Shown here piece after piece: positions 18,037 through 35,048 of a DNA stretch of 64,000 bases (within the stretch, counting starts at the first letter, position 1; each line of letters opens with the position of its first letter). The DNA comes from Flavobacterium suaedae (lineage in GTDB: Bacteria > Bacteroidota > Bacteroidia > Flavobacteriales > Flavobacteriaceae): assembly GCF_014642915.1 (NCBI RefSeq), contig NZ_BMJE01000001.1, positions 1 through 64,000 on the forward strand. The letters run 5' to 3'. The position numbers were made by a program, and so were the translations under genes. Under the pieces are notes generated by a model. That model searched no databases. It had not been told where the DNA came from and saw only the letters and a program-made list of their open reading frames with translations.

Positions 18037-18354
18037 ATGAAAAAGCATCCCTTTACAGCTGACGGTATACAGGCATTTCACAGTGAAATGTCGATGTATG
18101 ATGAGGAACGCCTGGTAAACGAAGCTGTCGTTTTAGCAGAGGATTGCCTTGGCTACCTCAATCAGAAATTTGAGATTGATGTTTCAATGCTGGAAGCCAT
18201 GAGAATGTTGGATACACAGCAGATGTTCACTTTAGGATGGTGCCTTGCCATCGCGGTTATCAACAGGCAACCTATAACTTTTGCAGATAATATTTTCAGT
18301 ATTGCAAGTCCTGTAGTGTTGCATAACCCAATTTATACTTTTACTATCAAATGA
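18037..18354 (+). CDS. Hypothetical 105-residue protein
   Basis: A soluble, mildly acidic protein with predicted helices (residues 8-85), a natural composition and an ATG start. No signal peptide, membrane helix or known motif is visible. It is the only plus-strand gene between the efflux operon and the long minus-strand block, and is convergent with the 361-residue gene next to the NACHT gene. I do not recognise it and propose no function. Small cargo genes of this kind are common on such elements. Confidence 0.55.
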   Translation: MKKHPFTADGIQAFHSEMSMYDEERLVNEAVVLAEDCLGYLNQKFEIDVSMLEAMRMLDTQQMFTLGWCLAIAVINRQPITFADNIFSIASPVVLHNPIYTFTIK

Positions 18355-18457: not shown

Positions 18458-19543
18458 TTAATCAAGGTCACCTAATATGCTATCCGATGTAACTATTGTA
18501 GGGTCGTACCAGTCGGCCTTTGCAAGTGCCCAATCTATCCAAAGTTGTATCTCTTCGGAAATTCCACCCTTTATCATTGCCGTACGCTCTGCAGCAGCGA
18601 CAAAAGCCCGTATTTTTTCCGCCTTCGCAAAGTTATCAGCCTGTGAGAGGAGAGTATCCAGCTTTGCCTGCTCGGCCTTTCGCAACCTTTCCTTTTCCTG
18701 TCTTAGCTGCTCTTCTTTCTCACGCTCTATGGCAGCGATCCTTGCCGTCTCTCTCCACTGGGCTTCTTTTTGCGCATCAAGTTCGAGCCGCACTACGATT
18801 CTGGGCAGCATATCCTCAATTTTTGTTTTATTATCCCGCCATTCTTTATCAAAGGAGTACCTGCCTGATTTCAGGATGAGCTTGCCGTTGGGTATCAGTT
18901 CAGAGGTAGGCCATCGCGATTCGGTGTTGTAGACTCTGTTGGAAGCTTCCCGAAGCGAGAGCTTTATCTCAACGCCATCAATAAGGGCAAAAGTACCCCT
19001 TTCGTTGATGGCAACTCCATGCCCGCGGTATTCCAGTAATTTTATAAGGGTATCAAAGAAAAGCAGTGCCCTCGGTCTGTTGGCTTTCTCTGTGCCGATA
19101 CTGAGATGGGGCATGGCATTCCCAAAACGGAAGCGGTCGCTGTGCTTGTTTTGTTCCACCCAGTAGCGCTTGGTTTCCCTAATATGGGGATGTGCCTTGG
19201 CAAGGGTTTCGGGTACGATCAGCGGTGCATCAGGGTCAGCCTTCAGTTTCCGTACCAGAATTGTTTCAGGCGAGGCGTCAAGGTTAAAGGGGTTTTCATC
19301 TCCGCGAAGGGTGAGTTCAATGGCATCATTACCCGTACCAAAAGCCGGCAACTTCCCGGGCATCACCGGCTTGTTGAACTTCAGTTTCTGCCAGTAGCCG
19401 TTAGGCGGTATCGGGACTTGGTATTTTTTGCACATCTTACGAAGGCCGTTATCCGATATGGCATAGGTCTTTGCCAGCTTGCTCAGCGGAGTACTCCATA
19501 CCAGGTTATAAAATTCTTTTCGGGTTAAGGTTACCTTTTCCAT
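18458..19543 (-). CDS. HTH-like N-terminus, coiled-coil protein of unknown function; partner of the NACHT gene
   Basis: This 361-residue protein starts with a module (VWSTPLSKLAKTYAISDNGLRKMCKKY followed by VPIPPNGYWQKL) that reads like a helix-turn-helix. The module is shared by a widespread group of uncharacterised bacterial proteins. Residues 255-300 form a Glu/Lys/Arg-rich coiled coil (REKEEQLRQEKERLRKAEQ), followed by a compact acidic C-terminus. No catalytic motif is seen. It begins 11 bp after the stop of the 1431-residue NACHT gene on the same strand, so the two are probably co-transcribed. It may regulate or assist the NACHT protein, or recognise DNA through the HTH. The pairing is inference from spacing only. 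Confidence 0.7.
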   Translation of the reverse strand: MEKVTLTRKEFYNLVWSTPLSKLAKTYAISDNGLRKMCKKYQVPIPPNGYWQKLKFNKPVMPGKLPAFGTGNDAIELTLRGDENPFNLDASPETILVRKLKADPDAPLIVPETLAKAHPHIRETKRYWVEQNKHSDRFRFGNAMPHLSIGTEKANRPRALLFFDTLIKLLEYRGHGVAINERGTFALIDGVEIKLSLREASNRVYNTESRWPTSELIPNGKLILKSGRYSFDKEWRDNKTKIEDMLPRIVVRLELDAQKEAQWRETARIAAIEREKEEQLRQEKERLRKAEQAKLDTLLSQADNFAKAEKIRAFVAAAERTAMIKGGISEEIQLWIDWALAKADWYDPTIVTSDSILGDLD

Positions 19544-19554: not shown

Positions 19555-22500
19555 TCAGGGGATAAACAGATGCCTGTTCCCATCCAGTAATCCGATTACT
19601 TCCCGAAGGCTATAGGCTTTCGATTTATGTTTATAATAAATTTCCATAATATCATTCTTTAGGCGGTGATAATAAAACAAGTCACCCCCGGTTGCATTTA
19701 TTTTTCGGAAATCCATTTTAGAGAGCCTTTCAATTACCACAGTACAGGTAGCAGCATCATAATTCTTACAAATATTTATCAGCGCTTCCGAGGCAATGCG
19801 GGTCGGTAGTGTAAACCTATCGTAAATTGCCTTGCTGTCGGGAGTTGTAAGGTACAGTTCCATCAGAGCTACAAGATCATCTATGCCCTCAACATTGCTG
19901 TAGCGTTGCCAATCATCGTTACGGAATTGTATGGTTACAATCTTTTTTTCCTTAAGTCGTGCAGTAATATAACCGAGCAGACTCTTGAATGCATTTGGGT
20001 CGTTGCAACCGACCATGTGCCTGATAATATCAATCTCATCATATACCTGATTATCTATCAGTTCCCGCTCATTCTGTAATAGGAATGTCCTTATTTTGTC
20101 ATTTTTTTCGCTCTTGCTCCAAATATCTATAATTGTATCATAGACCATGCGGCGTACCCTTGAATCTCCCTGGTAGTGCATAAGTTCGTCAAGTACATTG
20201 TCGTCATTTTCGTAAAGCCGCTTAATTAATTGTATGGCAGTTACTTCACTGCCGTAATCAAGATAACGGTAAATGATATCCAGAAAGTTTATATTTAGCG
20301 ACATAATGTCGATATCATGGTCCAGGCAATAGGAGAGGTGACCGTAAAAACAGGATGCCGGCAGCTGGGCATGGACAAGATTCCAGACAACACGCTGCCC
20401 AATCTCTTCATTGGTCAGACCGTCAGAGGTAAGGTTCTCAGATGGATTAGCCTGTCCCGAAAGTTGAATGTTTATGCCTTCCCACAGTTTAAAATACAGG
20501 AAATTCAACAGTGTCTCCTTATCCAGCGGAAACCTGAAATATTTCTGGAAATTGTGGATCAGTTCGTAGACCTTGAATTCTTCGGTATAACGCAGTTCTT
20601 TATCTTCAATTAATCTTGACTTGTAGAACTCTCTTAGATTATCCGCCGTATTGACACACCAATTTTCTATATATTTCACCTGCATCTGGGAAACCTCAAT
20701 CTTCTGGTTTTTCTCATCCTTTTTGGGAAGTGCCTGATAGATGTCAAACATGATGTCAGTTTCCATAGCGGCTAACCTTTTCGGGGCATCAGAAAGCTTC
20801 ATCCCCTTTTTGCGGCGTATCATTTGTCCGAGCAGGTGCTTGGCATTGCTACGCACGGCCTTAAAAAGGTCAAGGTCGTGGTAATACTTCCTATAAACAG
20901 TTTCCAGATCCTTATTTGTCATGGTATCCTTGCCGAGATACCCATACATATAGTTGATCTGTCCCAGCAATCCCTCCCGGTTAAAAAGCAGGTTGAAGTC
21001 TTCCTGTTTATCGGTACTGCGAACCATTGCCCATTGATCGGCCTCGCCGATGCTTAGCTTGTCTAAAAAGAGGTAGCTGCTGTGTTGCTCCACAAATTCC
21101 TCAAACCTTTTGCTTAAGGTGAAGCTGCGGTAGCTAAGTACATTCCGGTATTCTCTTATAAAATCATCATTCACACTGCCGCTGTGGTACTGTTCGGTAA
21201 TCATTATGAAGTCCTTTTCCTCCATGATTTCAACCAGAAAATGTTTGGTGCTGCTGTTGCCCTTTACAGCTTTAAGTACAGCTGTTGCCACAGGCCTTGC
21301 TATTGCACATGCCTTTACAAGATTCACAAGCAGGTCATCCTCATAATACCTAATATTATCATTGATAACAGCCTTGCTGATCATATCGGTTAAGGTGTCA
21401 TTGTATTCCGGCCTGTCTTTGAAGACGTTTTCCATATGCTCCAAAAAATCCTTCAATACACTTTCCTTAAGTGAATTCTCCTTATGCCTGGCCAATAGGA
21501 ACCGGTAAATACGAAGAAGCTTATCGGGATTGGTAATCCGGCAAAAATGCTCAAATAGTGTATCCTTAGTAGAGTTTATCGAGCGTGTCCTGGCAGTAAA
21601 TTTCCATTGCTTTAAACCAAGTGCTTTGTCGAGTATACCCAAAAAGTAATCCAGATGGTTCTCTACCGTAGCCTCAGGGACAGCCCTGAGGACAGCTCCC
21701 ACCACTTCTTTGTGATCATCCTCCCTAACTATTTCTATTAGTTCGCCAAAGAATTCCCGGTCGTCACTCAGCCCCAGGCTCTTACTGAGCATTATTATGT
21801 CCTCTTTAAGGTAAATGTAATCTTCATCCATGTAATCAGCCGAAAGAACCTGTTTCACCAGTGTCTTGACACTTTCATTATGGTGGTGCGCCGGTTCCAT
21901 TAGCGAAAGGATCTTGACCGCTGACATTCGGGCACGCCTGTGAATGCTCTCATCTGCAATTTTTTTGAGCAGGTAGGTGATATTGGCTTCGGTCTGGCTG
22001 AAACGTGCGATCTGCCCGGCATCATTTATCCATAGGGTTTCCTGTTCGCAGTGCCTCTCAAAATAGCGGACCAGCAATCGTTCCTTGATATCATCACTGA
22101 TCAGGTTGGCGTCGGCGTTAAAAAGCACTTCGTAATCATGTTCAGCCAGCCAGTCGGCAAGATCTGCATACACCTGCTGTGGCAGGTTCAGGTTCAGGGT
22201 AAAAGAAACAACGTTATACCATGAGGGATGTACTTTATTGATATCGGTGTCGATGCGGATCAGCTCAAGAATCTCTTCGAACGAAAGTTCCACCATAAGG
22301 GTTGCTACAAAATATTCTTGAATGTTTTTATTTTCGAAAGCCCACGTACCATCGGTGTTTTCTTCCAGGAAAGGGTTTTTTGCCAATGTTGTGGCCTCCA
22401 TTCCTGTAACTTTTTTAAGATCGGCGGCACTTAAGTTTGTTTTTTGAAGCGACTCAAAGGTGAAGGCAGCCCGTCTGGTATCCGAAATAATCCTGTCAAT

Positions 22501-23850
22501 GTCAAAGCCGGCATCATTACTGAATTTATTATCCTCATCGTGTTTTAACCGTGAATTCACGAATTCACGAATCAGTGTGGCCTTATCGGTACGAAGGCTT
22601 TTATGCTGGAGGTAATACTTTCCTATCAGTTCTAGATAGAAAGGATTCTCAAAGAGCTGTCGCTGCTGGCTGTAATCAAAATTTGGCTGGGTGCTCAGAT
22701 CCAATCCGAATTTTTCAAAAAGGAACGGCGCCGCCTGAGAAAAGGCAACCTCGTTCAGGTAGTATTCGTTGAAGGCAGCTACCTGTTTGATGTATTTCCT
22801 GTAGACATTGGTGCGGCAGCTGATAATGAACCTTATTTTGTATTTTTTGAGCTTGGTTTCGTGCTCATCGATATAAGCCCTGAGTTTGTTGGTAAAATCA
22901 GTAATGTTTTCCACCTCATCGACCCCGTCAAGAATGATAACAAGCCCTGCCGTACGCAGTGCCTGTTTGGGAAGCAACTCTTCAATGGAGCTTGCCCTGT
23001 TAAAAGTTTTAAGCTGGACAAAAAAGCAAACGTTGGATTTGCTGTTTCTGCTTTCCCATGAAGACACCGCAAAATTGCGCAGTTCGGTCGATTTACCGTA
23101 GCCCGCACCCCCCAGGAGGACAATACCCTTTTCAACTGTCGCCAATGCCCTTTCTAGGCTGATTCCCGAGGGATTATACATTTCCATAAGACTCCGCTCC
23201 TTTGAGGGGCGTAGGGTACGCGATATTGTTATCGGGTCTTTAAGTAGCTTTCCGATATAGACTTGCCGGTCGGTCTCCTGTATGGTAACCTGGCTGAGCA
23301 GGTTATCAGAAAAGAGAAAGCTCCTGAAATTAGCGATAAGTGTACGGCGTTGTTCCGCATTGAGTACTAACGCCTCTTTGCGGTAGATTTTTTTATATAA
23401 GTCAGAATAAAGGCTGATATAGTCCTGTATCCTCTGGTCCGGTGTCAGAAAGGCTACAGAGAACAGGTTGGTTACAAGGGCTTCAAAGAAGGGCTTGTTC
23501 CTTGTAGGTTCCATAATATTACTGAAAGGCTGAAAAGGGGATAGGAATAGTGCCAGGTCGATATCCCTGTGTGTGGAAGCGAGTTGAGGAAGCTTTGTCA
23601 TGGCCTCCGAGTAATTAAGCTTAGTTGTGTAGTCCTTGCACTCACAGTATATGGTAAAGGTAATGCCCTTTTGGTCAATAACCTGTATCAGGTCATCATA
23701 ACCATCCTGACTTCCTGAGTGCTGTATACGTAATGTTGCTACCGACAGCCCCATTTCCTTGCAAATTCGCTCAAGAAAGTCAATGGCAACTGTTTCTAAA
23801 TCTCCGCCTTTTTTCACATGTAAAAATTTACTACTAATATAAAGATTCAC
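19555..23850 (-). CDS. NACHT NTPase with N-terminal PD-(D/E)xK-like nuclease domain (bNACHT-type defence protein)
   Basis: The start is a GTG at 23850; no ATG is available in the first 30 codons. Length 1431 residues. Residues 15-140 resemble an Mrr/PD-(D/E)xK nuclease: GGDLETVAIDFLERIC helix, Asp49/Asp52, then Glu70-Cys-Lys72 in YCECKDY. A NACHT-type NTPase follows, with Walker A GGAGYGKS at 247-254 and Walker B LVIILDGVDE around 303-311. A sensor-like arginine segment follows (FIISCRTN). Residues 560-1431 are helical-repeat-like without recognisable catalytic motifs, as in the sensor regions of bacterial NLR proteins. By analogy with bNACHT and Avs proteins, phage sensing by the C-terminus would drive oligomerisation and DNA cutting by the N-terminus. 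A 361-residue partner gene follows by 11 bp. It lies downstream of the PRTRC operon, separated by 200 bp containing a long hairpin. Confidence 0.85.
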   Translation of the reverse strand: MNLYISSKFLHVKKGGDLETVAIDFLERICKEMGLSVATLRIQHSGSQDGYDDLIQVIDQKGITFTIYCECKDYTTKLNYSEAMTKLPQLASTHRDIDLALFLSPFQPFSNIMEPTRNKPFFEALVTNLFSVAFLTPDQRIQDYISLYSDLYKKIYRKEALVLNAEQRRTLIANFRSFLFSDNLLSQVTIQETDRQVYIGKLLKDPITISRTLRPSKERSLMEMYNPSGISLERALATVEKGIVLLGGAGYGKSTELRNFAVSSWESRNSKSNVCFFVQLKTFNRASSIEELLPKQALRTAGLVIILDGVDEVENITDFTNKLRAYIDEHETKLKKYKIRFIISCRTNVYRKYIKQVAAFNEYYLNEVAFSQAAPFLFEKFGLDLSTQPNFDYSQQRQLFENPFYLELIGKYYLQHKSLRTDKATLIREFVNSRLKHDEDNKFSNDAGFDIDRIISDTRRAAFTFESLQKTNLSAADLKKVTGMEATTLAKNPFLEENTDGTWAFENKNIQEYFVATLMVELSFEEILELIRIDTDINKVHPSWYNVVSFTLNLNLPQQVYADLADWLAEHDYEVLFNADANLISDDIKERLLVRYFERHCEQETLWINDAGQIARFSQTEANITYLLKKIADESIHRRARMSAVKILSLMEPAHHHNESVKTLVKQVLSADYMDEDYIYLKEDIIMLSKSLGLSDDREFFGELIEIVREDDHKEVVGAVLRAVPEATVENHLDYFLGILDKALGLKQWKFTARTRSINSTKDTLFEHFCRITNPDKLLRIYRFLLARHKENSLKESVLKDFLEHMENVFKDRPEYNDTLTDMISKAVINDNIRYYEDDLLVNLVKACAIARPVATAVLKAVKGNSSTKHFLVEIMEEKDFIMITEQYHSGSVNDDFIREYRNVLSYRSFTLSKRFEEFVEQHSSYLFLDKLSIGEADQWAMVRSTDKQEDFNLLFNREGLLGQINYMYGYLGKDTMTNKDLETVYRKYYHDLDLFKAVRSNAKHLLGQMIRRKKGMKLSDAPKRLAAMETDIMFDIYQALPKKDEKNQKIEVSQMQVKYIENWCVNTADNLREFYKSRLIEDKELRYTEEFKVYELIHNFQKYFRFPLDKETLLNFLYFKLWEGINIQLSGQANPSENLTSDGLTNEEIGQRVVWNLVHAQLPASCFYGHLSYCLDHDIDIMSLNINFLDIIYRYLDYGSEVTAIQLIKRLYENDDNVLDELMHYQGDSRVRRMVYDTIIDIWSKSEKNDKIRTFLLQNERELIDNQVYDEIDIIRHMVGCNDPNAFKSLLGYITARLKEKKIVTIQFRNDDWQRYSNVEGIDDLVALMELYLTTPDSKAIYDRFTLPTRIASEALINICKNYDAATCTVVIERLSKMDFRKINATGGDLFYYHRLKNDIMEIYYKHKSKAYSLREVIGLLDGNRHLFIP

Positions 23851-24050: not shown

Positions 24051-24833
24051 CTAAAGCGGCAGTGGCATTGTCCTCAAATCCCCTAAATTAACAAACACAC
24101 CCCGCTGCTCGGTAAAGCCCTTTCTAAAAAGTTGCCACAACAGGCTGCAACCCATTTGTGCCAATACGGAGTTGATGAACAAATCCTGTTTTTCGAGGGC
24201 TTCGGCAAGTGAGCAGCTCGGCAGGTTTTCGGTATCGCCCTGTAAGAGCAACTCCGCAAATTCTTTTGTAACCTGTGGCAGGCTGCCCACAGGTATGAAC
24301 TTTTCCGATGCAGGCTGTTGGATACTGCCGATTGTGGAAAGGATAACCTGCCCTGTGTCCCTGCTGTTACCGAAGTCCATCCAGTAACGGGGCGTATCGG
24401 AACCGTATGCACTCAAATCCAAATCATTTAAAACGTCCGCAATCCCGAAACGGGCTGCTGCGGTGTCCACACAGGAAATATAAATCGCATTCCTGCCTGT
24501 TACGGTATTAGCGGTAAATGGTTTTTCTACGGCTCTCCACGCTGTGCCGAAAAAGCGGTTGGTACGGGTAATGAGGGCGGTGGCTTTGAATAAGCCCACT
24601 TCGCACTCCGCAAACAACTGCCTGCCACGGTTGGCATCCGTAATTACATCATCATCCCACAGGCTGACCTGAAAGCCTGCGTGTCCCAATTGTTGCAGGC
24701 TGTGGGACATCCGTGCCAAGCCTGTCAGCACCTGTGAGCCTGTACCGCCTGCGCCAATCAGGCAGACCTTTATGGGGTTGGTCGGGTTTAGCAGTTCGGG
24801 TGCGGTAAAGTGTGCTTTTGTTTTCGTTTCCAT
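24051..24833 (-). CDS. PRTRC system ThiF family protein (E1-like)
   Basis: A 260-residue protein of the ThiF/E1 superfamily. The nucleotide-binding loop GAGGTGS is at residues 27-33, the WDDD segment at 59-62, an arginine pair in ANRGRQ at 67-72 and Lys84. The CVDTAAAR segment near 121-128 matches the adenylating-enzyme core. It should activate the C-terminus of a ubiquitin-like partner with ATP. The likely partner in this operon is PRTRC protein C, which ends in glycine, and the acceptor is protein B. The start codon overlaps the stop of the protein B gene (24833), which indicates translational coupling. It is the last gene of the PRTRC operon. Confidence 0.9.
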   Translation of the reverse strand: METKTKAHFTAPELLNPTNPIKVCLIGAGGTGSQVLTGLARMSHSLQQLGHAGFQVSLWDDDVITDANRGRQLFAECEVGLFKATALITRTNRFFGTAWRAVEKPFTANTVTGRNAIYISCVDTAAARFGIADVLNDLDLSAYGSDTPRYWMDFGNSRDTGQVILSTIGSIQQPASEKFIPVGSLPQVTKEFAELLLQGDTENLPSCSLAEALEKQDLFINSVLAQMGCSLLWQLFRKGFTEQRGVFVNLGDLRTMPLPL

Positions 24834-25534
24834 TACAATAGGTTTTTAAGGGTTAGCGGTGTGGTTTTTAAGGTGTCGGTTGGAAATGGCTTTTCAGGGT
24901 CTGCCATAAGTTCTTTGTAGAGGTTAAACAGGTTAACACCTACGGGGTTGTGGTCATTGATGTGGTGGGAAAAATAACTCCCGAAAAAATAGCCTTGCCA
25001 TGCCGTAATGAATTCCTCTAAGGTCGCAGCGGATTTAATGGCGATGTTTACATTACCCATACACACATTGCCCTTTTGGTAGAGGTTAAAAAAGGGGGCA
25101 TGGTATAACGGGGTATCTATTTTTGGTTTGGCTTTACCGTTCAGGGCAAATAGTTGCAGTTCCTTTTTAGTGGCTTTCCAAACGAGGGCAGGCAGGGCAA
25201 CCGTGCCGTTATCCAATCCCAGGCTTTCGGCAAAGTAAAGTTGTTGCCTTTGGGGCTTGGTGTACCATAGCACGCTGCCGTTGTCGGACGGGTTAAGGTG
25301 CAACACAGTATCAGGCAGTACGCCCTCGGGGCGCAGGAATGCCTTGCCTGCCTGCTCTCGGGTATCAAGGGCTTTGGAAAGGCTTTGCGCTTCCCTCACG
25401 GTTAAAGGGTGTGGGTTTACAGGGCTTCCGCTTTCGTCCATGTCGTAATACTCAATATAGGGGGCGGTAAAACCGCTTGCAGTAAAAACTACAAGGGCGG
25501 CTTTAGGTTGGTATAGAGGGACGTTTGGTGTCAT
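24833..25534 (-). CDS. PRTRC system protein B (prokaryotic E2-like)
   Basis: A 233-residue protein matching PRTRC protein B in the layout and in the segments LHLNPSDNGSVLWYTKP and YQKGNVCMGN. Cys158, in that last segment, is the only cysteine in the whole protein. The family has been related to E2-like conjugating enzymes (Prok-E2_D group), so this residue is the natural candidate for a thioester-forming cysteine. The gene overlaps the protein F gene by 32 bp and the thiF gene by 1 bp. A role in transferring a ubiquitin-like modifier is inference from family and context; no target is known. Confidence 0.85.
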   Translation of the reverse strand: MTPNVPLYQPKAALVVFTASGFTAPYIEYYDMDESGSPVNPHPLTVREAQSLSKALDTREQAGKAFLRPEGVLPDTVLHLNPSDNGSVLWYTKPQRQQLYFAESLGLDNGTVALPALVWKATKKELQLFALNGKAKPKIDTPLYHAPFFNLYQKGNVCMGNVNIAIKSAATLEEFITAWQGYFFGSYFSHHINDHNPVGVNLFNLYKELMADPEKPFPTDTLKTTPLTLKNLL

Positions 25535-26690
25535 AATCGTAGTTGTTTAAGAGGTAGCACAATTCATTTAAAAGTGGGAACAGTCGGCATTCAAAATCGA
25601 GGGTATCGTTGTCCTGCGGTTGCCCGTCAAAGAAACGTTTCAGGACAGGCTCTTGTTTTGACACGCTTTCGTTAAAGTTGGCGTTAACCGACTGTTGTAC
25701 GTTTTCATACAGCCACCCGTCAGTACAGGCGACAAAGCCGATGTATTTTTCCATCGTGATGCATTCGTAATCATCATAATCATCGTTTTCAAAATCAGGC
25801 AGGCAGCTTGTATCGGCGTGTTTGTAGATGGAGGTTTCAGGGTAGTCCTGCCACAGGCTGTAAAACTTTTGGGCGATACTTTGGCATTGTCTGTCCAAAT
25901 CATCACAGGGCGTAAAGGCTTCGAGCCATTCCACGAAATGGTCAAAGTGTACCGTGTTCCAAATCCTGCGTAGCATGGTTTCCCCGTATTGCTGCGCAGC
26001 CCGTAACTGGCTTACATAATCGTAATAGTCTTTTTGTTTCCAATCATCGGGGTCATTTTGCACCCATTCGGAAACCATTTCATACTGCCAATACAAAAAA
26101 CTGTCCTCGGTGTAATACGGAATATGTACGGTATGGAACAGGTAGCTGAACACACAAAGCAAGAGCCGTGCGCCTTTACGGTGCTTTTTGTCTTTAATCA
26201 TATAATGCAGGGGCAGCACAGGAATGTAAAACAGCGTGTTACCTGTATAGCAGGTTTCTGTTGCTTCAACTATGAAACTGCCGTTATGCTCCAACAGTTC
26301 CAAACCGACATGTTGGGAATACTTCTCATTGAGCAGCCGCGCGGCTTCGTGCAGGGCAACCTCCCTGCCATAGGGATAGGCAAAACCTGTAGTGTCCACA
26401 GGGTTCACATTATAATGTTCACACAGCAGTTTAAAACTCCGGTAAAAGTCCTCTTTTTCGCTGCTGCCTGCGATTGCCTGCCCTGCATAATGTGGCAAAA
26501 AACGGGTTTTCAGAAAACCATAGGCAGCAGCCCCACAGGGGCTGACATTGGGTGGTCGGAAAGTACCTCGGCGGTGTCTTTCCTGCGCTGCAAGCCCGTC
26601 AGGAACTCGGCTGTGTTTTTGTGCAGCAGCTTTTGTCTTTTGTTTTGGGGCAGCCGTAACTGCCCCGCTATTATCTTTTGCATAGTCCAT
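25503..26690 (-). CDS. PRTRC system protein F
   Basis: A 395-residue protein placed exactly where PRTRC protein F is expected, between proteins C and B. The first 45 residues are Lys/Ala-rich and probably disordered (APKQKTKAAAQKHSR). The remainder is a helical, aromatic-rich domain with a conserved-looking core (VGLELLEHNGSFIVEATETCY, DDWKQKDYYDYVSQL). No catalytic motif is visible, and the family has no assigned activity. The assignment relies on gene order and length as much as on sequence. It starts 18 bp after the protein C stop and overlaps protein B by 32 bp. Confidence 0.75.
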   Translation of the reverse strand: MDYAKDNSGAVTAAPKQKTKAAAQKHSRVPDGLAAQERHRRGTFRPPNVSPCGAAAYGFLKTRFLPHYAGQAIAGSSEKEDFYRSFKLLCEHYNVNPVDTTGFAYPYGREVALHEAARLLNEKYSQHVGLELLEHNGSFIVEATETCYTGNTLFYIPVLPLHYMIKDKKHRKGARLLLCVFSYLFHTVHIPYYTEDSFLYWQYEMVSEWVQNDPDDWKQKDYYDYVSQLRAAQQYGETMLRRIWNTVHFDHFVEWLEAFTPCDDLDRQCQSIAQKFYSLWQDYPETSIYKHADTSCLPDFENDDYDDYECITMEKYIGFVACTDGWLYENVQQSVNANFNESVSKQEPVLKRFFDGQPQDNDTLDFECRLFPLLNELCYLLNNYDYDTKRPSIPT

Positions 26691-26707
26691 AACGTTAGGT
26701 CTTACAA

Positions 26708-26926
26708 TTATCCTTTTGTCCCCATAGTGGTTTCAAAACGGTACAGTACGGTATCGTTTGTAATTTCAGGGCCGACTGTCTTGGCGGTCGTTAGTGTCGG
26801 GTACGTGTTCGCATAGAAATGCATCACGGCTTCCACGCTCCATTTCGGGTCGGGGTCGGTCAGGGTAAATTCATTCCCCTTGTCTTTCATCAGGAACACC
26901 CTCGGCATCAATAAGGTCTGTAGCAT
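26708..26926 (-). CDS. PRTRC system protein C (ubiquitin-like)
   Basis: The ATG at 26926 (MLQTLLMPRVFLMK) is preferred; a longer form from 26950 is possible. The product is about 72 residues and matches PRTRC protein C: PRVF start, FTLTDPDPKWSVEAVMHFYANTYP core, then YRFETTMGTKG. This small beta-grasp family has been grouped with prokaryotic ubiquitin-like proteins. The C-terminal glycine fits activation by the ThiF protein of the same operon. The gene overlaps the 3' end of the protein E gene by 56 bp. This would be the modifier of a Ub-like pathway; that role is inference. Confidence 0.8.
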   Translation of the reverse strand: MLQTLLMPRVFLMKDKGNEFTLTDPDPKWSVEAVMHFYANTYPTLTTAKTVGPEITNDTVLYRFETTMGTKG

Positions 26927-27518
26927 CTTGTTCGGTTTTAGGTTCAACATTCGTTATATCAGTAGCAGGTTGTTCAGCACCAAACAGGTCGGGGCTGAAT
27001 TGAGCCGACAGGCTCGACCTGCGGTTGCGGATTTCCTCGGATTTTTCGGGGAACTCGGAAGTTTTTGGCACTTTTAGCCATGCTTCCCTGAATTTACCTG
27101 CTGCTTCGAGTTTATCCACTTCCGCCATAATGCCCTTGTATTTCATTTCTTTGATTTCCTCGGGTGTGGCGGGCTTGTCCGATTTATCGGCTTTATCCGT
27201 TTTTTCGGTTTTTTTCTTTTCCATCGCTGCATTTTTTTTGGCGGTTTCCTGCCCTTTAAGGTAGGCTTCCATATTCACGAGCAGTTTAGAGGTTTCGGCT
27301 ACAGGTGCGCTGACAGCATCAAAGAAGCCCTCACACAATTCCTTTGCGCTACCCCTTAAAATCAGGGGCGGTATATGGTTCTTTGCTGCATCCCCGCAGC
27401 CCTCATTTTGCAGCAGTACGGAGGTGGTCAGTTGCTCCCCGTCCTTTCTGACGGTAATGTTCAGGCAGCCCTCGAACGGGATGGCTGCGATATGGGCGAA
27501 AAAATTCGTTACTGGCAT
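26871..27518 (-). CDS. PRTRC system protein E
   Basis: A 215-residue protein with an N-terminal domain (residues 1-95: NFFAHIAAIPFEGCLNITVRK, ILRGSAKELCEGFFDAV) typical of PRTRC protein E. A highly charged linker follows (KKKTEKTDKADKSDKP) and then an acidic C-terminal region. The linker length and Lys/Glu richness suggest flexibility. The function is unknown. It begins 5 bp after the stop of a small 62-residue gene and overlaps the protein C gene, so it belongs to the same operon. Confidence 0.82.
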   Translation of the reverse strand: MPVTNFFAHIAAIPFEGCLNITVRKDGEQLTTSVLLQNEGCGDAAKNHIPPLILRGSAKELCEGFFDAVSAPVAETSKLLVNMEAYLKGQETAKKNAAMEKKKTEKTDKADKSDKPATPEEIKEMKYKGIMAEVDKLEAAGKFREAWLKVPKTSEFPEKSEEIRNRRSSLSAQFSPDLFGAEQPATDITNVEPKTEQDATDLIDAEGVPDERQGE

Positions 27519-27523
27519 GGCAT

Positions 27524-27712
27524 TTATCTTTTTGGTTTGCGTTTCGGTTCGGGGTTGCTCTCTATTACTCGCCTGATGAGGTTCAGTGCGGTTGCGGTGT
27601 CAAAGGCATCGGCTGCGGTCATTGCCACGTGGTCAAGCCTTTCCATAATCGGCAGTACTTTTTTTAGTGTGGTTACTGCCTTGCGTTCTGTGGTCTGTGC
27701 TAATATGCTCAT
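27524..27712 (-). CDS. Small 62-residue protein in the PRTRC operon
   Basis: The ATG at 27712 (MSILAQTTERKAVTTLKKVL) gives a 62-residue helical protein with a basic tail (NPEPKRKPKR). A longer frame from 27769 would read through the strong hairpin at 27728-27750, so the internal start is preferred. No known domain is visible. It sits between the DUF932 gene and protein E with tight spacing, and small genes of this kind are seen at this place in related elements. A DNA- or RNA-binding role would fit the basic tail but is not shown. Confidence 0.6.
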   Translation of the reverse strand: MSILAQTTERKAVTTLKKVLPIMERLDHVAMTAADAFDTATALNLIRRVIESNPEPKRKPKR

Positions 27713-27727
27713 AACATTGTATTTTAT

Positions 27728-27750
27728 GCTGCACCGCTTAGCGGTGCAGC
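27728..27750 (-). terminator. Perfect 10-bp hairpin between two operon genes
   Basis: GCTGCACCGC and GCGGTGCAGC pair perfectly around a 3-nt loop. It lies in the 47-bp gap between the DUF932 gene and the next gene. No T run follows, so it may attenuate transcription or mark an mRNA-processing site rather than end it. Confidence 0.55.
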
Positions 27751-27759
27751 GGTTAACTG

Positions 27760-28803
27760 TCAGTTGCATTGCAGGGCAACCGCCCCGTTTTTAGAGAAAT
27801 CTCCGCACAGGTCAAAGGCTTTTTGCCCCCGTGCCTGTGCCGTGCCGCCCAAGCAGATACTTTTCAGTTTATCCTCGCCCGTTTTAAAGCTGCGTACATT
27901 TTGGTAGTAGCCCGTAACGGCATTGTACGCGCCAAACAACGTGCCTTTGGTGGTTACAAGGCTTTGGGTGTCGTCTGCCATAGCGTATTCAAAGGCAGCA
28001 TCACAGGCGTTTTTGTACATTGTCGAAAGTTCTTCGGTAGCCCCTTTCTTTAAAAGGTTGTAGGTTTCTTTGTTGGGACATAGTGCCAACTGTATCAGTT
28101 GCTTCACCTGCTTATCTTCAATGCGCACATTAGCCCACTCATTAAAAATGCCCTCTAATTGTAGTGAAAGCATATCGGCAACGCCCATTACTTTGTGCGC
28201 CTGCTCCAAACGTTCCTTAGCCCCTGCGGTATGGCGTATGCGTACCACGTTGGTAGCGGTTTTCAGGGCTGCATTAAGGGTGTTTTGGCATACGATACGC
28301 ACGGGCGTAAAGGCTGCGGTAATACTTCCACTACCATCGTGGGAGGTGGTCAGGAAAATATACTTTTGCGTTACGTCATCGCCATTGCCCACACGGATAT
28401 AGCCGGGCAGCTTGGCGCTAATAAAAATGCGTTCCCCGTTGCCGAGTGCGCCTGCGGTCTCATACAATATGCCCTCGCCACCGCCTACAATGGCATCGAA
28501 AAAAGCGAACGCATCGGCATTTTGTACAATTTGGTAATCCTTGCCGACCACACCGAAAACGGCATTGGTATCGGTGCGCAGGGTCGCGTACTGGTTCGGT
28601 ACGGCAAAATCAAGCCCTGCTGCTTCGGTCTTAGCAAACAGGGGTGCTTTTACCACCTCGTAGTCCAAGCCTGCAAAGGCTATCGCTTCACGGCTTGTCG
28701 GGTAGTTTTCCACTATCTGCCCAAGCCCGTGCCATGCAGGTTGTTTTACACTCATAAAGGCATGTTGCCCTGTTGCTTCATTGAAATTTATATTATGTGC
28801 CAT
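27760..28803 (-). CDS. DUF932 domain protein (phage/plasmid-like)
   Basis: A 347-residue protein typical of the DUF932 / phage-plasmid-like family. The N-terminal part reads FMSVKQPAWHGLGQIVENYPTS. The central part has TLRTDTNAVFGVVGKDYQIVQN and FISAKLPGYIRVG, and the C-terminal part VCQNTLNAAL. The family is found on plasmids, phages and conjugative elements next to ssb and replication or recombination genes, but its activity is not established. It follows ssb by 28 bp and precedes the PRTRC genes, so it is probably part of the same maintenance operon. An AraC-like or DNA-repair role has been guessed for relatives; nothing here decides it. Confidence 0.85.
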   Translation of the reverse strand: MAHNINFNEATGQHAFMSVKQPAWHGLGQIVENYPTSREAIAFAGLDYEVVKAPLFAKTEAAGLDFAVPNQYATLRTDTNAVFGVVGKDYQIVQNADAFAFFDAIVGGGEGILYETAGALGNGERIFISAKLPGYIRVGNGDDVTQKYIFLTTSHDGSGSITAAFTPVRIVCQNTLNAALKTATNVVRIRHTAGAKERLEQAHKVMGVADMLSLQLEGIFNEWANVRIEDKQVKQLIQLALCPNKETYNLLKKGATEELSTMYKNACDAAFEYAMADDTQSLVTTKGTLFGAYNAVTGYYQNVRSFKTGEDKLKSICLGGTAQARGQKAFDLCGDFSKNGAVALQCN

Positions 28804-29251: not shown

Positions 29252-29581
29252 AATCGAAAGATTTTAAGTTTGACAAAATGTTCTGTTGCTTTCCCCAATC
29301 CCGCATAACATTTTCCAAAAGAAAAAACGGAAAAAAAGAAAGCCAGCCCAAAGCGGGCGGTAAGGGCGCGGCGTGCTATAAGTCCCGGAGGGTGGCCCGC
29401 GCGGCAGCAGGAGCCATTATGCGCACGGAGCAACCGCCGCCTGCTAGCTTAGCTGCCCTTTTTGGCCGTTTTCGCATTGGAAATGTCCTTTTCCGCCACC
29501 TATTATGTTTGAAGTACTTTCGGAATATGGGCAATAGTGTTAAAAATTATTTATTTTTATAATCCAATTAACAAACAACTT
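29252..29581. other. Intergenic region with a GC-rich core between ssb and the helicase gene
   Basis: 330 bp between divergent genes. Bases 29345-29470 are strikingly GC-rich compared with the neighbours and contain short inverted repeats such as GCCC-aaagc-GGGC at 29345-29360. Frames crossing it give arginine/alanine/cysteine-rich translations without a natural look. It may hold divergent promoters and a replication or recombination site; no specific site can be named. Confidence 0.4.
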
Positions 29582-31276
29582 ATGAAGCATACAGCGGAAC
29601 AATTGCAAATTTTTGATTTTGTAAAGAATGATGATGGACATGGTATTATAGATGCGGTTGCCGGAGCCGGTAAGACTACCACGATTATGGAGTGCGTCAA
29701 GTTTGTTCCCAACAGGAATGATATTCTATTTTGTGCGTTTAATAACAGTATTGCCAATGAAATTGCCTATAAATTCAGCCAAAAGGGGTTTCCTGAAGTA
29801 GTTGTAAAGACCATGCACTCGTTAGGACGAAGTATTCTTCATGAAAATAACGGAACAGGGCATCCGATAAATCTTCGGGAAGACAAATACCGTGAACTGC
29901 TTAAAAATGAAGAACTCCTGGAAAAGATCAGGCCTTTTTTTGAAAATATCGCTATCATTAATGACTATGATATTACACCCTTTGATGATAAGGCTAAGTT
30001 TGCTTTAAATAACTTATATTCTACAATCAGGAGTAAGTTGCTGGAGATAAATCAGAAGTATAGGGCTACCCTGACAAAAGATGACATTGAGAGCTTTAAA
30101 GAGATGGCTATTCATTACAACCTGTTCAATGATATTGATGTAAAGAAAAAAGATTTTCATAAAGAGGCTCTCAATTATTTTGAGGCACACCGTATCATCC
30201 TTAAGGAGGGAAATGATCTTTCTGAAAGGACAATGATTATCGATTTTACGGATATGCTGTACCTGCCGTACCACTGGAAATTAGAACCTTCAAAAAAATA
30301 CAGCTTCCTTTTTATCGACGAGTGTCAGGATTTGTCCAGGTCACAATTAGCTATTGCTATGAAATACGGAAAGCGGACAGGACGTATTCTGGCAGTTGGA
30401 GATCCCCGCCAATCTATTTACGGATTTACAGGAGCAGATATAGAGTCATTCTATAACATACAAAAAATCACAAAAGCCAAGGCACTTCCCCTGACAGAAT
30501 GTTTTCGCTGTCCGGCAGATATAGTAGCATTGGCGCAAAAAATAAGGAGCGACATCAAAGGGAATAAACCGGAGGCGGGCAAAATCCATAAAATTGCTTT
30601 CGGGGAAATTGTAAAACTGGCAAGGCCCGGTAATCTCATTATATCAAGATTTAGGGATCCGATTATCGTCCTTGTCTTTAATTTTATTGACGAGAATATA
30701 AAAGTACATATTCACGAAGATGAAGCAAGGGAAATCATCAATGAAATAAAGAGCATTTTTAAGCAGGAAGAACTTAATGCGATCATTGCCTATCAGCCAA
30801 AGCAATTCGAGTCCATTTCAGAGGCTGTCTTTAACCGATGGATGTGGATAATAAAAAAGAATGCGGCACCAATAATCGACAGTAAGGAGCGCAGCCTATA
30901 TATAGAAGAGCAAAAGGACATTCTGGAGCAAAAGCTTCGGTTCTTAAATAAAAAATATGAGCTTTGGAAGGAGGAGTGCAAGACACTGGTGGATATCTTA
31001 AAGAAGATTAAGGAATTCATATCCGCGCCAAGCAATTCCATAAAGCTATCAACTATCCACAGGGCTAAGGGGCTTGAAAACGAAAGGGTATTCATACTTG
31101 GATATGACCAGCTACCATTTAAGAGGCTATATCATAAAGATTGGGAAAAAATCCAGGAACTGAACCTCAAGTATGTTGCCATCACCAGGTCACTGGACGA
31201 ACTGTTTCTTATCGAAAGCAATAATTTGCAAACCCTAGAAGAGGAGGGAAGCCTATTCGATATCTTACCTATTTAG
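29582..31276 (+). CDS. UvrD-like superfamily 1 DNA helicase
   Basis: The ATG at 29582 (MKHTAEQLQIFDFVK) gives 564 residues. A Q-motif-like start precedes Walker A AVAGAGKTTT near residues 24-34. Walker B/motif II is FIDECQDLSR, motif III GDPRQSIYGFTGAD, motif IV-like ECFRCP, and motif V STIHRAKGLENERV, followed by YVAITRS. The set marks a 3'-5' SF1A helicase. It is shorter than UvrD/Rep and lacks a nuclease domain. It lies between the ssb/PRTRC operon and the CBASS locus, so it could serve element replication, DNA repair or defence. The promoter region is the divergent GC-rich spacer. A non-coding 95-bp gap separates it from the convergent capP-like gene. Confidence 0.88.
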   Translation: MKHTAEQLQIFDFVKNDDGHGIIDAVAGAGKTTTIMECVKFVPNRNDILFCAFNNSIANEIAYKFSQKGFPEVVVKTMHSLGRSILHENNGTGHPINLREDKYRELLKNEELLEKIRPFFENIAIINDYDITPFDDKAKFALNNLYSTIRSKLLEINQKYRATLTKDDIESFKEMAIHYNLFNDIDVKKKDFHKEALNYFEAHRIILKEGNDLSERTMIIDFTDMLYLPYHWKLEPSKKYSFLFIDECQDLSRSQLAIAMKYGKRTGRILAVGDPRQSIYGFTGADIESFYNIQKITKAKALPLTECFRCPADIVALAQKIRSDIKGNKPEAGKIHKIAFGEIVKLARPGNLIISRFRDPIIVLVFNFIDENIKVHIHEDEAREIINEIKSIFKQEELNAIIAYQPKQFESISEAVFNRWMWIIKKNAAPIIDSKERSLYIEEQKDILEQKLRFLNKKYELWKEECKTLVDILKKIKEFISAPSNSIKLSTIHRAKGLENERVFILGYDQLPFKRLYHKDWEKIQELNLKYVAITRSLDELFLIESNNLQTLEEEGSLFDILPI

Positions 31277-31371: not shown

Positions 31372-31947
31372 TTATTTTAATCTTCGAGATAAGCCTGTTA
31401 TATTAAGTCTGAACCTTACCATTTCTTCGCTTGCATTGTATTCTTCAGAAATAGCAGTGATGGAAAGCTTCTTTTTTATAGACCATAGAAGACATGGTTT
31501 AGAAAGTTGTAGGGTTGCACCAAGATAAATGGCTTCATCTTCTTGTTCTTTGTTAAAGTCTCTCATGCCTAACGGTATCGGGAAAGGATAATTGACCGAT
31601 TCAATTTTGTGATTGCAGACAATATGAGCTATTTCATGCATTATATTGCTTTGTTGTCGTGGTGGATTATGAAAATCATTATGTATTATGATTTGGTTTC
31701 CTTCCTTTGTGACCATAGTAAGAGCACTCCACCCTGATGCATCAGATTCGCTTCCCGCAAGTTTTTCATGCTCGTCATTAGAAGTTAAAAATTCTGAGGC
31801 ATTATATATCGGTACTTTAAGATATTCAGCCAATTTGAATGCACATAGAGGATTGCAAGGATGAATTCCCATTTGTTCCCTAAATTGGTTGGCGAGGCGT
31901 TCGGCGTTAGCTTTGAACCCCCTTTTAAGCGTTGTCTTTGTAGCCAA
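31372..31947 (-). CDS. capP: ImmA/IrrE-family metallopeptidase, CapP-like CBASS regulator
   Basis: A 191-residue COG2856-type metallopeptidase with HEIAH at residues 104-108 and a downstream glutamate in QEDEAIYLGA near 138 as the likely third zinc ligand. It lies 12 bp after an XRE repressor gene and diverges from a CBASS operon. This is the arrangement described for CapH-CapP, where the peptidase cleaves the repressor when DNA damage exposes single-stranded DNA and so switches CBASS on. ImmA/ImmR pairs of mobile elements are related and are the alternative reading. The identification as CapP rests on context plus family; substrate cleavage is not visible from sequence. Confidence 0.8.
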   Translation of the reverse strand: MATKTTLKRGFKANAERLANQFREQMGIHPCNPLCAFKLAEYLKVPIYNASEFLTSNDEHEKLAGSESDASGWSALTMVTKEGNQIIIHNDFHNPPRQQSNIMHEIAHIVCNHKIESVNYPFPIPLGMRDFNKEQEDEAIYLGATLQLSKPCLLWSIKKKLSITAISEEYNASEEMVRFRLNITGLSRRLK

Positions 31948-31959
31948 TGTAAGGTGGTT

Positions 31960-32295
31960 TTATTTAGTTTCATATGCCATATTAATCATCTTGATGAGCA
32001 TATTTACAGTGTCAGGTGAGAGTTCTTTGTCAGCTCTTAAATGGGCAACTACCTGATCCTTATTGCTGGTTGGAGAATCTTTTCTCTCTCCAATTATGAA
32101 AGTATCTGTTGTTACTTCCAGCCAACGGCATATACTTATAAAAGTGTCAACGTCAGGAATTTTTCCCTGCTCAATTCTGGATAAGGTTGCTGCACTAACG
32201 TTTCCAATTTCTTCCGCAACTGCCCTCAATCCTTTTCCGGCTCTCTTACTTTTCAACATTCCAGCTAGAAGTGCTGTATTTAGTGTTGATTGCAT
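31960..32295 (-). CDS. capH: XRE-family repressor, CapH-like CBASS regulator
   Basis: A 111-residue protein with an N-terminal XRE helix-turn-helix (residues 12-65: GLRAVAEEIGNVSAATLSRI). The C-terminal tail of about 35 residues (LRADKELSPDTVNMLIKMIN) is predicted helical and suits dimerisation and cleavage. The gene is divergent from the CBASS operon, with a 10-bp inverted repeat in the spacer. It is followed by the peptidase gene, matching the CapH-CapP arrangement. Its likely job is to hold CBASS expression low and to be destroyed on DNA damage. Confidence 0.8.
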   Translation of the reverse strand: MQSTLNTALLAGMLKSKRAGKGLRAVAEEIGNVSAATLSRIEQGKIPDVDTFISICRWLEVTTDTFIIGERKDSPTSNKDQVVAHLRADKELSPDTVNMLIKMINMAYETK

Positions 32296-32354
32296 GTTAA
32301 TAAGTTTTATGTGTTTTACACTGTATCATATATGCAACGTATTTAAAATATAGA

Positions 32355-32362
32355 TAAATTTG
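32355..32362 (+). promoter_or_regulatory. Candidate -7 element of the CBASS promoter
   Basis: TAAATTTG matches TAnnTTTG. Transcription would start within the first arm of the inverted repeat at 32363-32372, so a repressor bound there would block it. Confidence 0.5.
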
Positions 32363-32400
32363 TGTTGCAGCATAGTTGTGTTTGTCTAACTGCTGCAACA
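32363..32400. promoter_or_regulatory. Inverted-repeat operator upstream of CBASS
   Basis: TGTTGCAGCA (32363-32372) and TGCTGCAACA (32391-32400) form a perfect 10-bp inverted repeat with an 18-bp spacer. It directly follows the candidate -7 element and lies between the divergent repressor and CBASS genes. It is a likely binding site for two repressor dimers, or one extended site. Confidence 0.6.
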
Positions 32401-32430
32401 AAAATATAAATAATTTTAATTTTTAGAACT

Positions 32431-32655
32431 ATGAGCAAAAAAAATCAACATGTAGTTCCCCGAGGAGATAACTGGGCGGTACAGGGAGCTGGAAATCAAA
32501 AAGCTACGCGTATTGTTTCCACACAAAAAGAGGCGATTAAGATAGCGAGAGAAATTGCCATAAATCAATCCTCAGAATTGTTTATCCATAGGCAAAATGG
32601 GCAATTCAGAGAGCGGAATAGTTATGGAAATGATGATTACCCTCCTAAAGGTTAA
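32431..32655 (+). CDS. DUF2188 domain protein, first gene of the CBASS operon
   Basis: A 74-residue DUF2188 protein: NQHVVPRGDNWAVQGAGNQKATRIVSTQKEAI is typical (a short beta meander followed by a helix, with a second strand pair ending LFIHRQNGQFRERNSYG). The function of the family is unknown; members are small and often travel with stress or phage-related genes. It is 2 bp ahead of the effector gene and has the operon promoter just upstream, so it is co-expressed with CBASS. It may be an accessory protein of the system or a passenger. Confidence 0.75.
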   Translation: MSKKNQHVVPRGDNWAVQGAGNQKATRIVSTQKEAIKIAREIAINQSSELFIHRQNGQFRERNSYGNDDYPPKG

Positions 32656-32657
32656 GT

Positions 32658-33464
32658 ATGAGTGCAAAAGGTAAAGTTAGTTTTACACTTGGAGGTTTAG
32701 GGCTGGTATCCTGCTTTTTCCTTGATGAGGGAGAGCTCAAGGATACCATCCTAAAGATTTCTTTAGGATTAGTTATTGCTGTAGTGCTGGAAGTAATAAT
32801 ATTTCTGTACGAGCACAGAAAGAAATGGAGTTTAATCAAAACAAAATTTTGGAAACCAAATGCTTCAGTGCGGATTACGGTAGCCTATCTTTTTAGAATT
32901 GAAACGAATGGCAAATATGTACTTATTAAAAGACATAAGAATGATTTTATCGGCTATCAGCCTGTAGGGGGAGCTTATAAATATTTTAAAGAAGAGAACC
33001 GAGCAAGGTTCGATGAACTTGGAATACTACCCTGTAATCAAATTGTAAGAGATGAGGATACTGAAAATGATATGCGACTGATAATGAATAAAAGAAAGAA
33101 ACTTGTTGATTTTTTAAAGTGGTTTGATAGTAGAAAAGATAGGGAAATAGACCCTTTTCGGGAGTTTTGTGAGGAGCTTATTCAGCCGGGCATCTTACCG
33201 ATGAAATTATTCCCTCATATTAAGTATTCTTACGTAGGAAAGCATCAGGAGGGCATATTACGTACCGATGATTACCCTGTTGATCAATTTAGGCATGCAG
33301 ACATATTTGAGCTTAGAATTGAATCAGAAGCACAAAAGCAAGCGATTCTTGATTTAGCTAAACATGAAGAAATAATTTTTGCTACCGCTGAAGAAATTAA
33401 AAAAGGTACAGCAAGTAATGGAATTAGAATATTACCTCATACATTTAAAATATTACCAAAATGA
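32658..33464 (+). CDS. CBASS effector: two membrane helices plus SMODS-associated NUDIX domain
   Basis: A 268-residue protein with two hydrophobic segments (about 8-22 and 31-50), then a basic juxtamembrane stretch (YEHRKKW). A NUDIX-like domain from residue 75 follows (VRITVAYLFRIETNGKYVLIKRHKNDFIGYQPVGGAYKYF, in which the classical GX5EX7REUXEEXGU box is degenerate; FREFCEELIQ keeps part of it). This is the SMODS-associated NUDIX (Sa_NUDIX) type found with CD-NTases. By analogy with the 2TM-NUDIX effectors of CBASS (Cap16-like), the cyclic nucleotide bound by the NUDIX-like domain would trigger membrane disruption. The gene overlaps the CD-NTase gene by 4 bp (ATGA). Confidence 0.85.
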   Translation: MSAKGKVSFTLGGLGLVSCFFLDEGELKDTILKISLGLVIAVVLEVIIFLYEHRKKWSLIKTKFWKPNASVRITVAYLFRIETNGKYVLIKRHKNDFIGYQPVGGAYKYFKEENRARFDELGILPCNQIVRDEDTENDMRLIMNKRKKLVDFLKWFDSRKDREIDPFREFCEELIQPGILPMKLFPHIKYSYVGKHQEGILRTDDYPVDQFRHADIFELRIESEAQKQAILDLAKHEEIIFATAEEIKKGTASNGIRILPHTFKILPK

Positions 33465-34591: not shown

Positions 34592-35013
34592 TGCTTCGCT
34601 ATCTCATACAAAACAGAAACTTAAATGATCAGGCTGCTTCCGTTATGGTCAAGTTTAAGGAGTGGAAAGTAAGCTTCGGGGGTTACTACATTAAGGCTGT
34701 TGGAGAAATAAAGCCAACACCAAGAAGCGAAACATATACTGTGGAAGTTAAATTTTTTACAGATGAAAAAAAGCAGCCTTTGATCAGAGTACTATCTCCA
34801 AAGCTGGTAAGGAACCATAAAAATGAAGCCATACCGCACATGTATGGCCAGAAATATCTTTGTCTTTTCATGCCTGCCTTTAGAGAATTTAAGAGCACCG
34901 ATTTAATTACTGATACTATAATTCCCTGGACTTCTTTGTGGCTCTATTATTATGAAATTTGGCATATAACAGACCGTTGGGAAGGAGGAGGTATACATAT
35001 CGAAAACATATAA
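34591..35013 (+). CDS. CBASS E2-like protein (type II-short)
   Basis: A 140-residue bacterial E2-like protein. The pattern IPHMYGQKYLCLFMP contains the candidate catalytic Cys91, and IIPWTSLWLYYYEIWHITDRW with a terminal EGGG is the hallmark C-terminal part. No E1 or JAB domain is fused or adjacent, so the operon is of the type II-short form, in which E2 alone conjugates the CD-NTase C-terminus and primes it. The ATG overlaps the CD-NTase stop by one base (TGATG), which indicates coupled translation. Confidence 0.87.
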   Translation: MLRYLIQNRNLNDQAASVMVKFKEWKVSFGGYYIKAVGEIKPTPRSETYTVEVKFFTDEKKQPLIRVLSPKLVRNHKNEAIPHMYGQKYLCLFMPAFREFKSTDLITDTIIPWTSLWLYYYEIWHITDRWEGGGIHIENI

Positions 35014-35048
35014 TTTTTTAAAATTATTTATTGAAAAATAAGAATGAA

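Follow-up and report, generated by a model that had tools for sequence, protein, structure and literature searches.

The stretch of DNA analysed here, which we call the window, comprises positions 1-64,000 of the forward strand of contig NZ_BMJE01000001.1 of Flavobacterium suaedae (assembly GCF_014642915.1), and it carries a gene for a 1431-residue protein in which a nuclease-like N-terminal domain, a NACHT domain and a long C-terminal region follow one another. We believe, with a probability of roughly three in four, that this protein is a self-contained anti-phage effector related to the NOD-like receptors (NLRs), of the bNACHT/STAND kind, that its gene is cargo of a PRTRC mobile element, and that the helix-turn-helix (HTH) protein of 361 residues encoded beside it is not a required partner. 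In other words, the large gene is most likely, by analogy with published proteins, a one-gene bacterial NLR relative that would cut DNA against phage, a kind of system that is already known. An earlier sequence-only reading had proposed instead that the two genes form an undescribed two-gene defence system. Its description of the open reading frames (ORFs) is accurate: the two genes share a strand, the 361-codon HTH gene lies 11 bp downstream, and the products are 1431 and 361 residues long. Counting from the GTG at 23850, as we do throughout, its motif positions are likewise recovered (D49, D52, E70-C71-K72, G247 to K253-S254 and D308-G-V-D-E312). Because 10 of the 11 aligned homologues were taken from a start of the form M(S/A/V)KKG (locus L045 differs; in L035, L038 and L040 this Met was picked inside an ORF reaching a few codons further upstream), the true start may lie at codon 12, the GTG at 23817, and all residue numbers would then fall by 11.

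The NACHT assignment draws on sequence and on predicted structure. The Pfam NACHT family matches the protein with 32.3 bits against a cut-off of 26.7 (E 1e-7), and in a 12-row family alignment the Walker A residues G247, G250, G252 and K253 are kept in 12/12 rows, the Walker B residues D308, G309, D311 and E312 in 11/11 rows that extend that far. In an AlphaFold2 model of residues 1-640, built with eleven homologues (mean predicted local distance difference test score, pLDDT, of 78.5), residues 187-639 align with NLRP3, NOD2 and NLRC4 at Z 17-18, with a root-mean-square deviation of 6.8-8.5 Å over 374-408 residues in the top twelve rows; a Foldseek search with the same model returned Avs4 (E 2.7e-10) and Avs3 among its matches. 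The helical-repeat-like C-terminus of the sequence-only reading can be followed part of the way: the model is wholly helical from about residue 506 to 640, whereas residues 641-1431 are read from the sequence by itself. About 800 residues beyond the NACHT domain align among homologues, and a search for C-terminal Pfam families in the protein found none. The tripartite make-up of effector, NACHT and C-terminal region is present, with the C-terminus as the putative sensor.

Is the N-terminal domain a nuclease? Because one domain filled the neighbour list of the 640-residue model, the N-terminal part was modelled on its own (AlphaFold2, residues 12-190, 12 sequences; mean pLDDT 75.4, predicted template modelling score 0.76). 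The predicted topology is H-E-E-E-H-E (H6-21 E25-30 E43-47 E53-60 H69-82 E88-92), that is, the alpha-beta-beta-beta-alpha-beta core of PD-(D/E)xK nucleases. A Foldseek search with the isolated domain gave two matches at E<=0.001, the restriction enzymes EcoT38I and MspJI, and an Avs4 match at E 0.028. The VIA list of neighbours is led by the Avs4 N-terminus (Z 7.7, 3.9 Å, 129 residues), followed by AF1548, N.BspD6I, MspJI and FokI, the best rows standing at Z 7-8; Cdn1, Cap4, Can2 and Lamassu LmuA appear lower down, and acetyl-CoA carboxylase rows, taken as unrelated, at Z 4.7 to 5.5. With Z values this modest and carboxylases nearby, the fold claim needs topology, neighbours and invariant catalytic residues together. 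As to the last, E19, Q43, Q48, D52, E70, C71 and K72 are invariant in 12/12 family members, while position 49 is D in 8/12, N in two and Y in two. D52 is therefore our candidate catalytic aspartate, being invariant where D49 is not, and the expected active-site residues E19, D52, E70 and K72 appear to be all in place. The core put forward from the letters, acidic Asp49/Asp52 ahead of a Glu-Cys-Lys motif, holds up except for Asp49, and conservation, predicted topology and structural neighbours support the nuclease-NACHT reading as a whole. The PD-(D/E)xK fold is out of reach of sequence searches alone: in a domain search of the 12 family members, one matched PDDEXK_15 (E 0.0087), and the window protein had no PDDEXK family match. 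The modest fold match, together with the existence in Pfam of a family NA-iREase1 (PF22722), whose name we take to stand for NACHT-associated inactive restriction endonuclease, might be read to mean that the protein is no DNase, its N-terminal domain being an inactive PD-(D/E)xK-like binding module or one that acts on RNA; with the active-site residues invariant in 12/12 members, however, we regard this as distinctly improbable.

Proteins of the same build have been published. In PMC12169576, bNACHT25 and bNACHT32 (clade 6) are described as single proteins with an N-terminal PD-(D/E)XK DNase, a NACHT domain and a C-terminal sensing region, and their PD-(D/E)XK domain is linked to DNA degradation upon infection, a conserved Asp being required; PD-(D/E)xK-NACHT proteins are therefore a described kind. 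Compared by description, the domain architecture of the 1431-residue protein is the same. One difference is that bNACHT25/32 carry an NCH1 C-terminal domain according to PMC12169576, whereas the C-terminus of the window protein has no Pfam family that we could find; no NCH family is among its Pfam matches at E<=1, in a library in which the presence of NCH1 is unconfirmed. The STAND NTPases Avs4 and Avs3 (PDB 8dgf, 8dgc), which have PD-(D/E)xK effectors, offer a second comparison: the likeness covers the nuclease domain, where Avs4 heads the neighbours, and the 640-residue model, but no PADLOC defence model matches the 1431-residue protein at E<=0.1. By analogy with bNACHT25/32 we infer sensing by the C-terminus, oligomerisation of the NACHT domain and degradation of DNA. 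In the scheme proposed here, an infection cue would be perceived by the long C-terminal region, whereupon the NACHT ATPase would oligomerise and so turn on the N-terminal PD-(D/E)xK DNase, which would destroy DNA and thereby abort the infection.

Are the NACHT and HTH genes partners? The 11-bp gap makes it likely that they are co-transcribed in the F. suaedae genome, and this gap on a shared strand, along with the frequency of defence genes ahead of HTH relatives (15 of the 20 that have a near same-strand neighbour), would suit a genuine two-gene defence system in this lineage, with the HTH protein as regulator or helper of the NACHT nuclease. The sequence-only reading had named beforehand a survey of homologues for co-occurrence as a test that could refute the pairing, and the survey went against it. 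The HTH gene is in the flanks of 0/13 NACHT loci (in the flanking DNA examined, some flanks being short), and a NACHT match adjoins the HTH gene in 0/56 HTH-bearing genomes, long and short HTH subfamilies taken together. The NACHT query matches 4/56 of these genomes at all; in three of the four the match covers the NACHT and C-terminal part, with 24-27% identity, and in the fourth the nuclease part only; an HTH match occurs elsewhere in 4/11 NACHT-locus genomes, two of the four being partial. Among 296 sampled genomes of the host's order, the HTH family is found in 8 and the NACHT family in 6, with both only in the window's own genome, and the nearest HTH-NACHT pairs on one contig lie about 21 kb (genome G745) and 73 kb (G502) apart. 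Conserved NACHT-HTH adjacency is not seen in the other genomes, so the claimed two-gene system is not supported: in the sampled genomes the 361-residue family is not a NACHT neighbour, and the closest relative found of the window's HTH protein (L133) occupies the same slot without a NACHT gene. We give a lineage-specific pair little credence.

What, then, is the NACHT gene doing next to the HTH gene? The pair sits behind the ThiF gene of a PRTRC block of a mobile element (24051-28803), in which ThiF scores above its cut-off, B and E fall a little short of theirs, and DUF932 is present. At locus L133, a related block (ThiF 72%) has behind it, without a NACHT gene, an HTH gene that is 58% identical to the window's and then a convergent small gene related to the window's (40%); the HTH protein of L133 is the closest relative of the window's in the tree (support 100/99). 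At the DNA level the homology between the window and L133 breaks off near 23988 and is picked up again at 19543, the start codon of the HTH gene. Insertion of the NACHT gene into the slot, rather than its loss in L133, is the simpler reading, and it agrees with base composition, the G+C of the HTH gene (0.490) being close to that of ThiF (0.516) and PRTRC B (0.484) and that of the NACHT gene lower (0.432). A ThiF search gave matches in 60/299 genomes, and we compared 22 loci: those of the window and L133, plus the 20 that scored best among the rest. The DNA downstream of ThiF is very variable among them, and the HTH gene follows ThiF in 2/22, for which reason we rejected the idea that it belongs to the PRTRC block as a constant member. 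Four other loci hold Septu-like (L182), Gabija-like (L184, L187) or LmuA/ThsA-like (L198) genes in the slot, where 10 proteins from 8 loci were scanned and the remaining loci judged by eye. The NACHT gene would thus be cargo lodged between the PRTRC ThiF gene and the HTH gene of the mobile element, and the HTH gene would have a separate history, probably being co-transcribed here and not needed as a partner.

Several points weigh against a self-contained NACHT nuclease carried as cargo. The 11-bp gap leaves room for a local functional pairing of the two genes, and the NACHT gene may have been lost from L133 instead of being gained in the window, L133 being the one NACHT-less HTH sister element found. 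Z values below 8 for the nuclease domain are in the range that can reflect a mere common arrangement of helices and strands; the mean pLDDT of its model is 75.4; and the profile of the domain, searched against PDB sequences, found no nuclease. For residues 641-1431 the argument is one from sequence. Finally, no PADLOC or NCBIfam family matches the 1431-residue protein at E<=0.1; at this threshold 0/5027 PADLOC-DB models and no NCBIfam entry match either it or the 361-residue protein, and phmmer searches of both against PDB sequences gave nothing useful.

Relatives of the NACHT gene, found by scanning genome contigs with a two-row NACHT alignment, amount to 13 loci: nine full-length relatives, two halves of one gene and two that are more distant. 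The full-length relatives are 33-41% identical and come from Flavobacterium, Chryseobacterium, Mariniflexile and Flaviramulus; viral contigs yielded no relative. Across 15 related NACHT loci there is no neighbour common to all. L034 and L037 both have a gene of about 597 codons after the NACHT gene (DUF4365 in L034, and by eye in L037), and L035, L038 and L041 have the same opposite-strand genes, which belong to the surrounding mobile element. In L082 (6355-10593), the NACHT domain and C-terminus align with query profile positions 160-1409, and a weak DUF4062 match (19.3 bits, under the cut-off of 24.7) replaces the nuclease at the N-terminus; DUF4062 is reported as a TIR-like NADase in Swarozyc (PMC13174449), whereas the window protein has its nuclease-like domain at that place. 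L083 has an Mrr_cat match barely above cut-off and aligns with the query in the NACHT region only. Judged from these alignments, the same NACHT-sensor body may carry exchanged N-terminal effectors, a nuclease here and a weakly DUF4062-like domain in L082. In one genome (L024 and L025) a homologous NACHT gene is split over two contig ends, one with a transposase-like ORF (by eye); the N-terminal part lies 11 bp behind two genes that, by eye, look like those of an ATPase of the OLD type and a helicase of the UvrD type. Elsewhere in the host genome (G000, contig 1, 475161-475385; L210), an NA-iREase1 domain (PF22722) scores above the family cut-off.

The HTH family is more novel than the NACHT gene and merits its own study. 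A genome-contig scan with the HTH protein alone found no relative, and viral contigs gave four distant ones. Our set comprises 38 full-length loci, 37 with an upstream gene on the DNA examined; it leaves aside L073 (degenerate), L080 (partial), the viral L084-L087, the plasmid L047-L056 and further partial or short matches, and L144, probably truncated, is tallied as short though it groups with full-length copies in the tree. The upstream gene is on the same strand in 26/37, within 200 bp in 20 of these, and divergent in 11/37. In 15 of the 20 co-directional copies, one or more of the four genes upstream is a known or candidate defence gene, of about a dozen types in all; the number falls to 14 when L020 and L021, which are near-identical, are treated as one, L021 being included through 98% DNA identity to L020. 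The PADLOC scans behind this count did not extend to L132 and L133 and covered L018, L121 and L123 in part, without a match in these three. These genes are NACHT (window), HsdR (L019), ZacB (L016), MkoC (L020 and its near copy L021), PDC-M16A with TOTE domains (L046), AbiEii (L072, L127), PDC-S24/Fic (L074), LmuB-like (L117), Drt2 (L118), PDC-M30 (L120), type I methyltransferase (L122), IetS (L129) and type II methyltransferase (L135). An annotated Mesorhizobium plasmid locus (L052) has the order AbiEi-AbiEii-HTH. Some gene labels (efflux, excisionase-like, transposase-like, mobilisation) were given by eye.

What might such a protein do? HTH residues 7-52 match the C-terminal end of PHROG 15471, a family of phage HNH endonucleases (E 3.2e-5), and the first 55 or so residues match places annotated as HNH endonuclease or HNH nuclease in several phages. 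The 361-residue protein differs from PHROG 15471 in having about 300 additional residues and no Pfam HNH match at E<=1, its Pfam matches being weak and all below cut-off. Because of the resemblance to phage HNH endonuclease ends, DNA binding is our best guess; the protein may also have a role at cargo boundaries. In a non-exhaustive search of the open-licence literature, we met no paper that describes the family as accompanying defence genes. One may ask whether it is just that, a general companion (a DNA-binding regulator or a cargo-boundary factor) that swaps partners, the NACHT gene being one. The share of 15/20, the phage-like HTH segment, the homology between copies that begins ahead of the HTH ORF (see below) and the different partners of close relatives (a clade of nine has Zac, DRT2, type I restriction-modification and Iet neighbours) all speak for this. 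However, 15/20 is a raw share, taken without a background rate for defence genes in such mobile elements; 17/37 copies have no same-strand gene within 200 bp, the 11 divergent ones among the 37 included; plasmid copies other than L052 adjoin replication, partition, integrase or metal-efflux genes; and a short subfamily (about 260 residues) lies behind one conserved operon, not defence-like, in 13/15 loci. We thus hold the general companion to be possible and lean against it.

A lead from the relatives, lying outside the window, is a hairpin repeat. Copies from 11 HTH loci are homologous at the DNA level from 76-169 bp ahead of the HTH ORF and, in most pairs, to a point no more than about 100 bp from the HTH stop; this leader starts within about 75 bp of the upstream ORF's stop in 10/11 loci, and its core is about 90 bp (examples are L117 13447-13537, L118 6396-6489 and L123 4132-4285). 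A repeat search of 20 HTH-bearing genomes, 12 of them picked as known holders of the leader or a copy, gave 25 matches in 13/20 genomes and none in the window's own. Copies are mostly 3' of same-strand ORF ends. L118 has a second copy in front of its DRT2 gene, and L117 has one immediately after its HTH gene. In a hairpin alignment (A7) of 21 of the 25 references, the stem from L226 shows covariation: 84.2% of pair cells keep it, and double changes number 33, compared with 13.5 in shuffles and <=18 in slid controls, although this stem was derived from one of the aligned sequences; RNAalifold predicted no consensus pairs for the repeat, and Rfam gave no plausible family for it, its two sub-threshold miRNA matches falling outside the repeat. 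The repeat bounds the L118 DRT2 gene and is similar to a cassette attachment site or a miniature inverted-repeat transposable element (MITE); a MITE, a terminator and an attachment site were all considered for it, and none was settled on. A fuller proposal, which we rate a shade below the companion by itself and offer tentatively, is that the HTH family is an undescribed, partner-swapping defence companion, a DNA-binding regulator or cargo-boundary factor, and that part of the family travels with the hairpin repeat, which would also set other cargo genes apart in the manner of cassette attachment sites; its partners would be NACHT, Zac, DRT2, type I restriction-modification, AbiE, Mokosh-like, Lamassu-like, TOTE, Fic, Iet and methyltransferase genes.

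The window holds other defence-related genes. A locus for cyclic-oligonucleotide-based anti-phage signalling (CBASS) at 31372-35360 has, on the minus strand, a gene resembling capP (PADLOC E 2.7e-5) and another that looks Xre-like by eye, and an Sa_NUDIX/2TM effector, a SMODS cyclase (PADLOC E 6.2e-150) and an E2 gene (E 1.2e-38) on the plus strand. A UvrD-type helicase at 29537-31276 is most like GajB (E 2.3e-35; no search for an adjoining GajA was made), and a large protein at 57284-59119 matches PglX/PglXI (E 2.1e-122) and adjoins long same-strand ORFs at 51982-57272.

Table 1. Features of the NACHT-HTH locus and its surroundings, in window coordinates
Feature	Position	Strand	Remarks
PD-(D/E)xK-like - NACHT - long C-terminal region protein, 1431 aa	19555..23850	-	1431 codons, GTG start
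HTH protein, 361 aa	18458..19543	-	ATG start; family found behind many kinds of defence gene, not a constant partner of NACHT
Predicted N-terminal PD-(D/E)xK-like nuclease domain, about residues 12-150	23401..23817	-	alpha-beta-beta-beta-alpha-beta model, nuclease neighbours
Asp52, candidate catalytic Asp	23695..23697	-	invariant 12/12
Glu70-Cys71-Lys72, ExK motif	23635..23643	-	invariant 12/12
Walker A, residues 247-254, GGAGYGKS	23089..23112	-	
Walker B, residues 304-312, VIILDGVDE	22915..22941	-	
N-terminal HTH segment of 361-aa protein, about residues 6-53	19385..19528	-	like C-terminal end of phage HNH endonuclease family
Stretch without counterpart between ThiF and HTH of related element L133	19544..23987	.	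NACHT gene and about 140 bp upstream
PRTRC ThiF-family gene	24051..24833	-	TIGR03736 E 2e-72; downstream side is the variable cargo slot
Convergent 105-aa gene	18037..18354	+	relatives past HTH gene in L133 (40%) and in L186 (35%, no HTH gene)

What do these findings mean? The NACHT gene adds a family without a PADLOC-DB or NCBIfam match to the bacterial relatives of animal NLR sensors. The correction to its supposed partnership is of consequence, since going by adjacency alone one would have named a two-gene system of which the other genomes examined show no instance. If the HTH family proves to be a shared companion, a dozen defence systems that are now studied separately would be connected through one small protein, which would also offer a handle for finding new ones.

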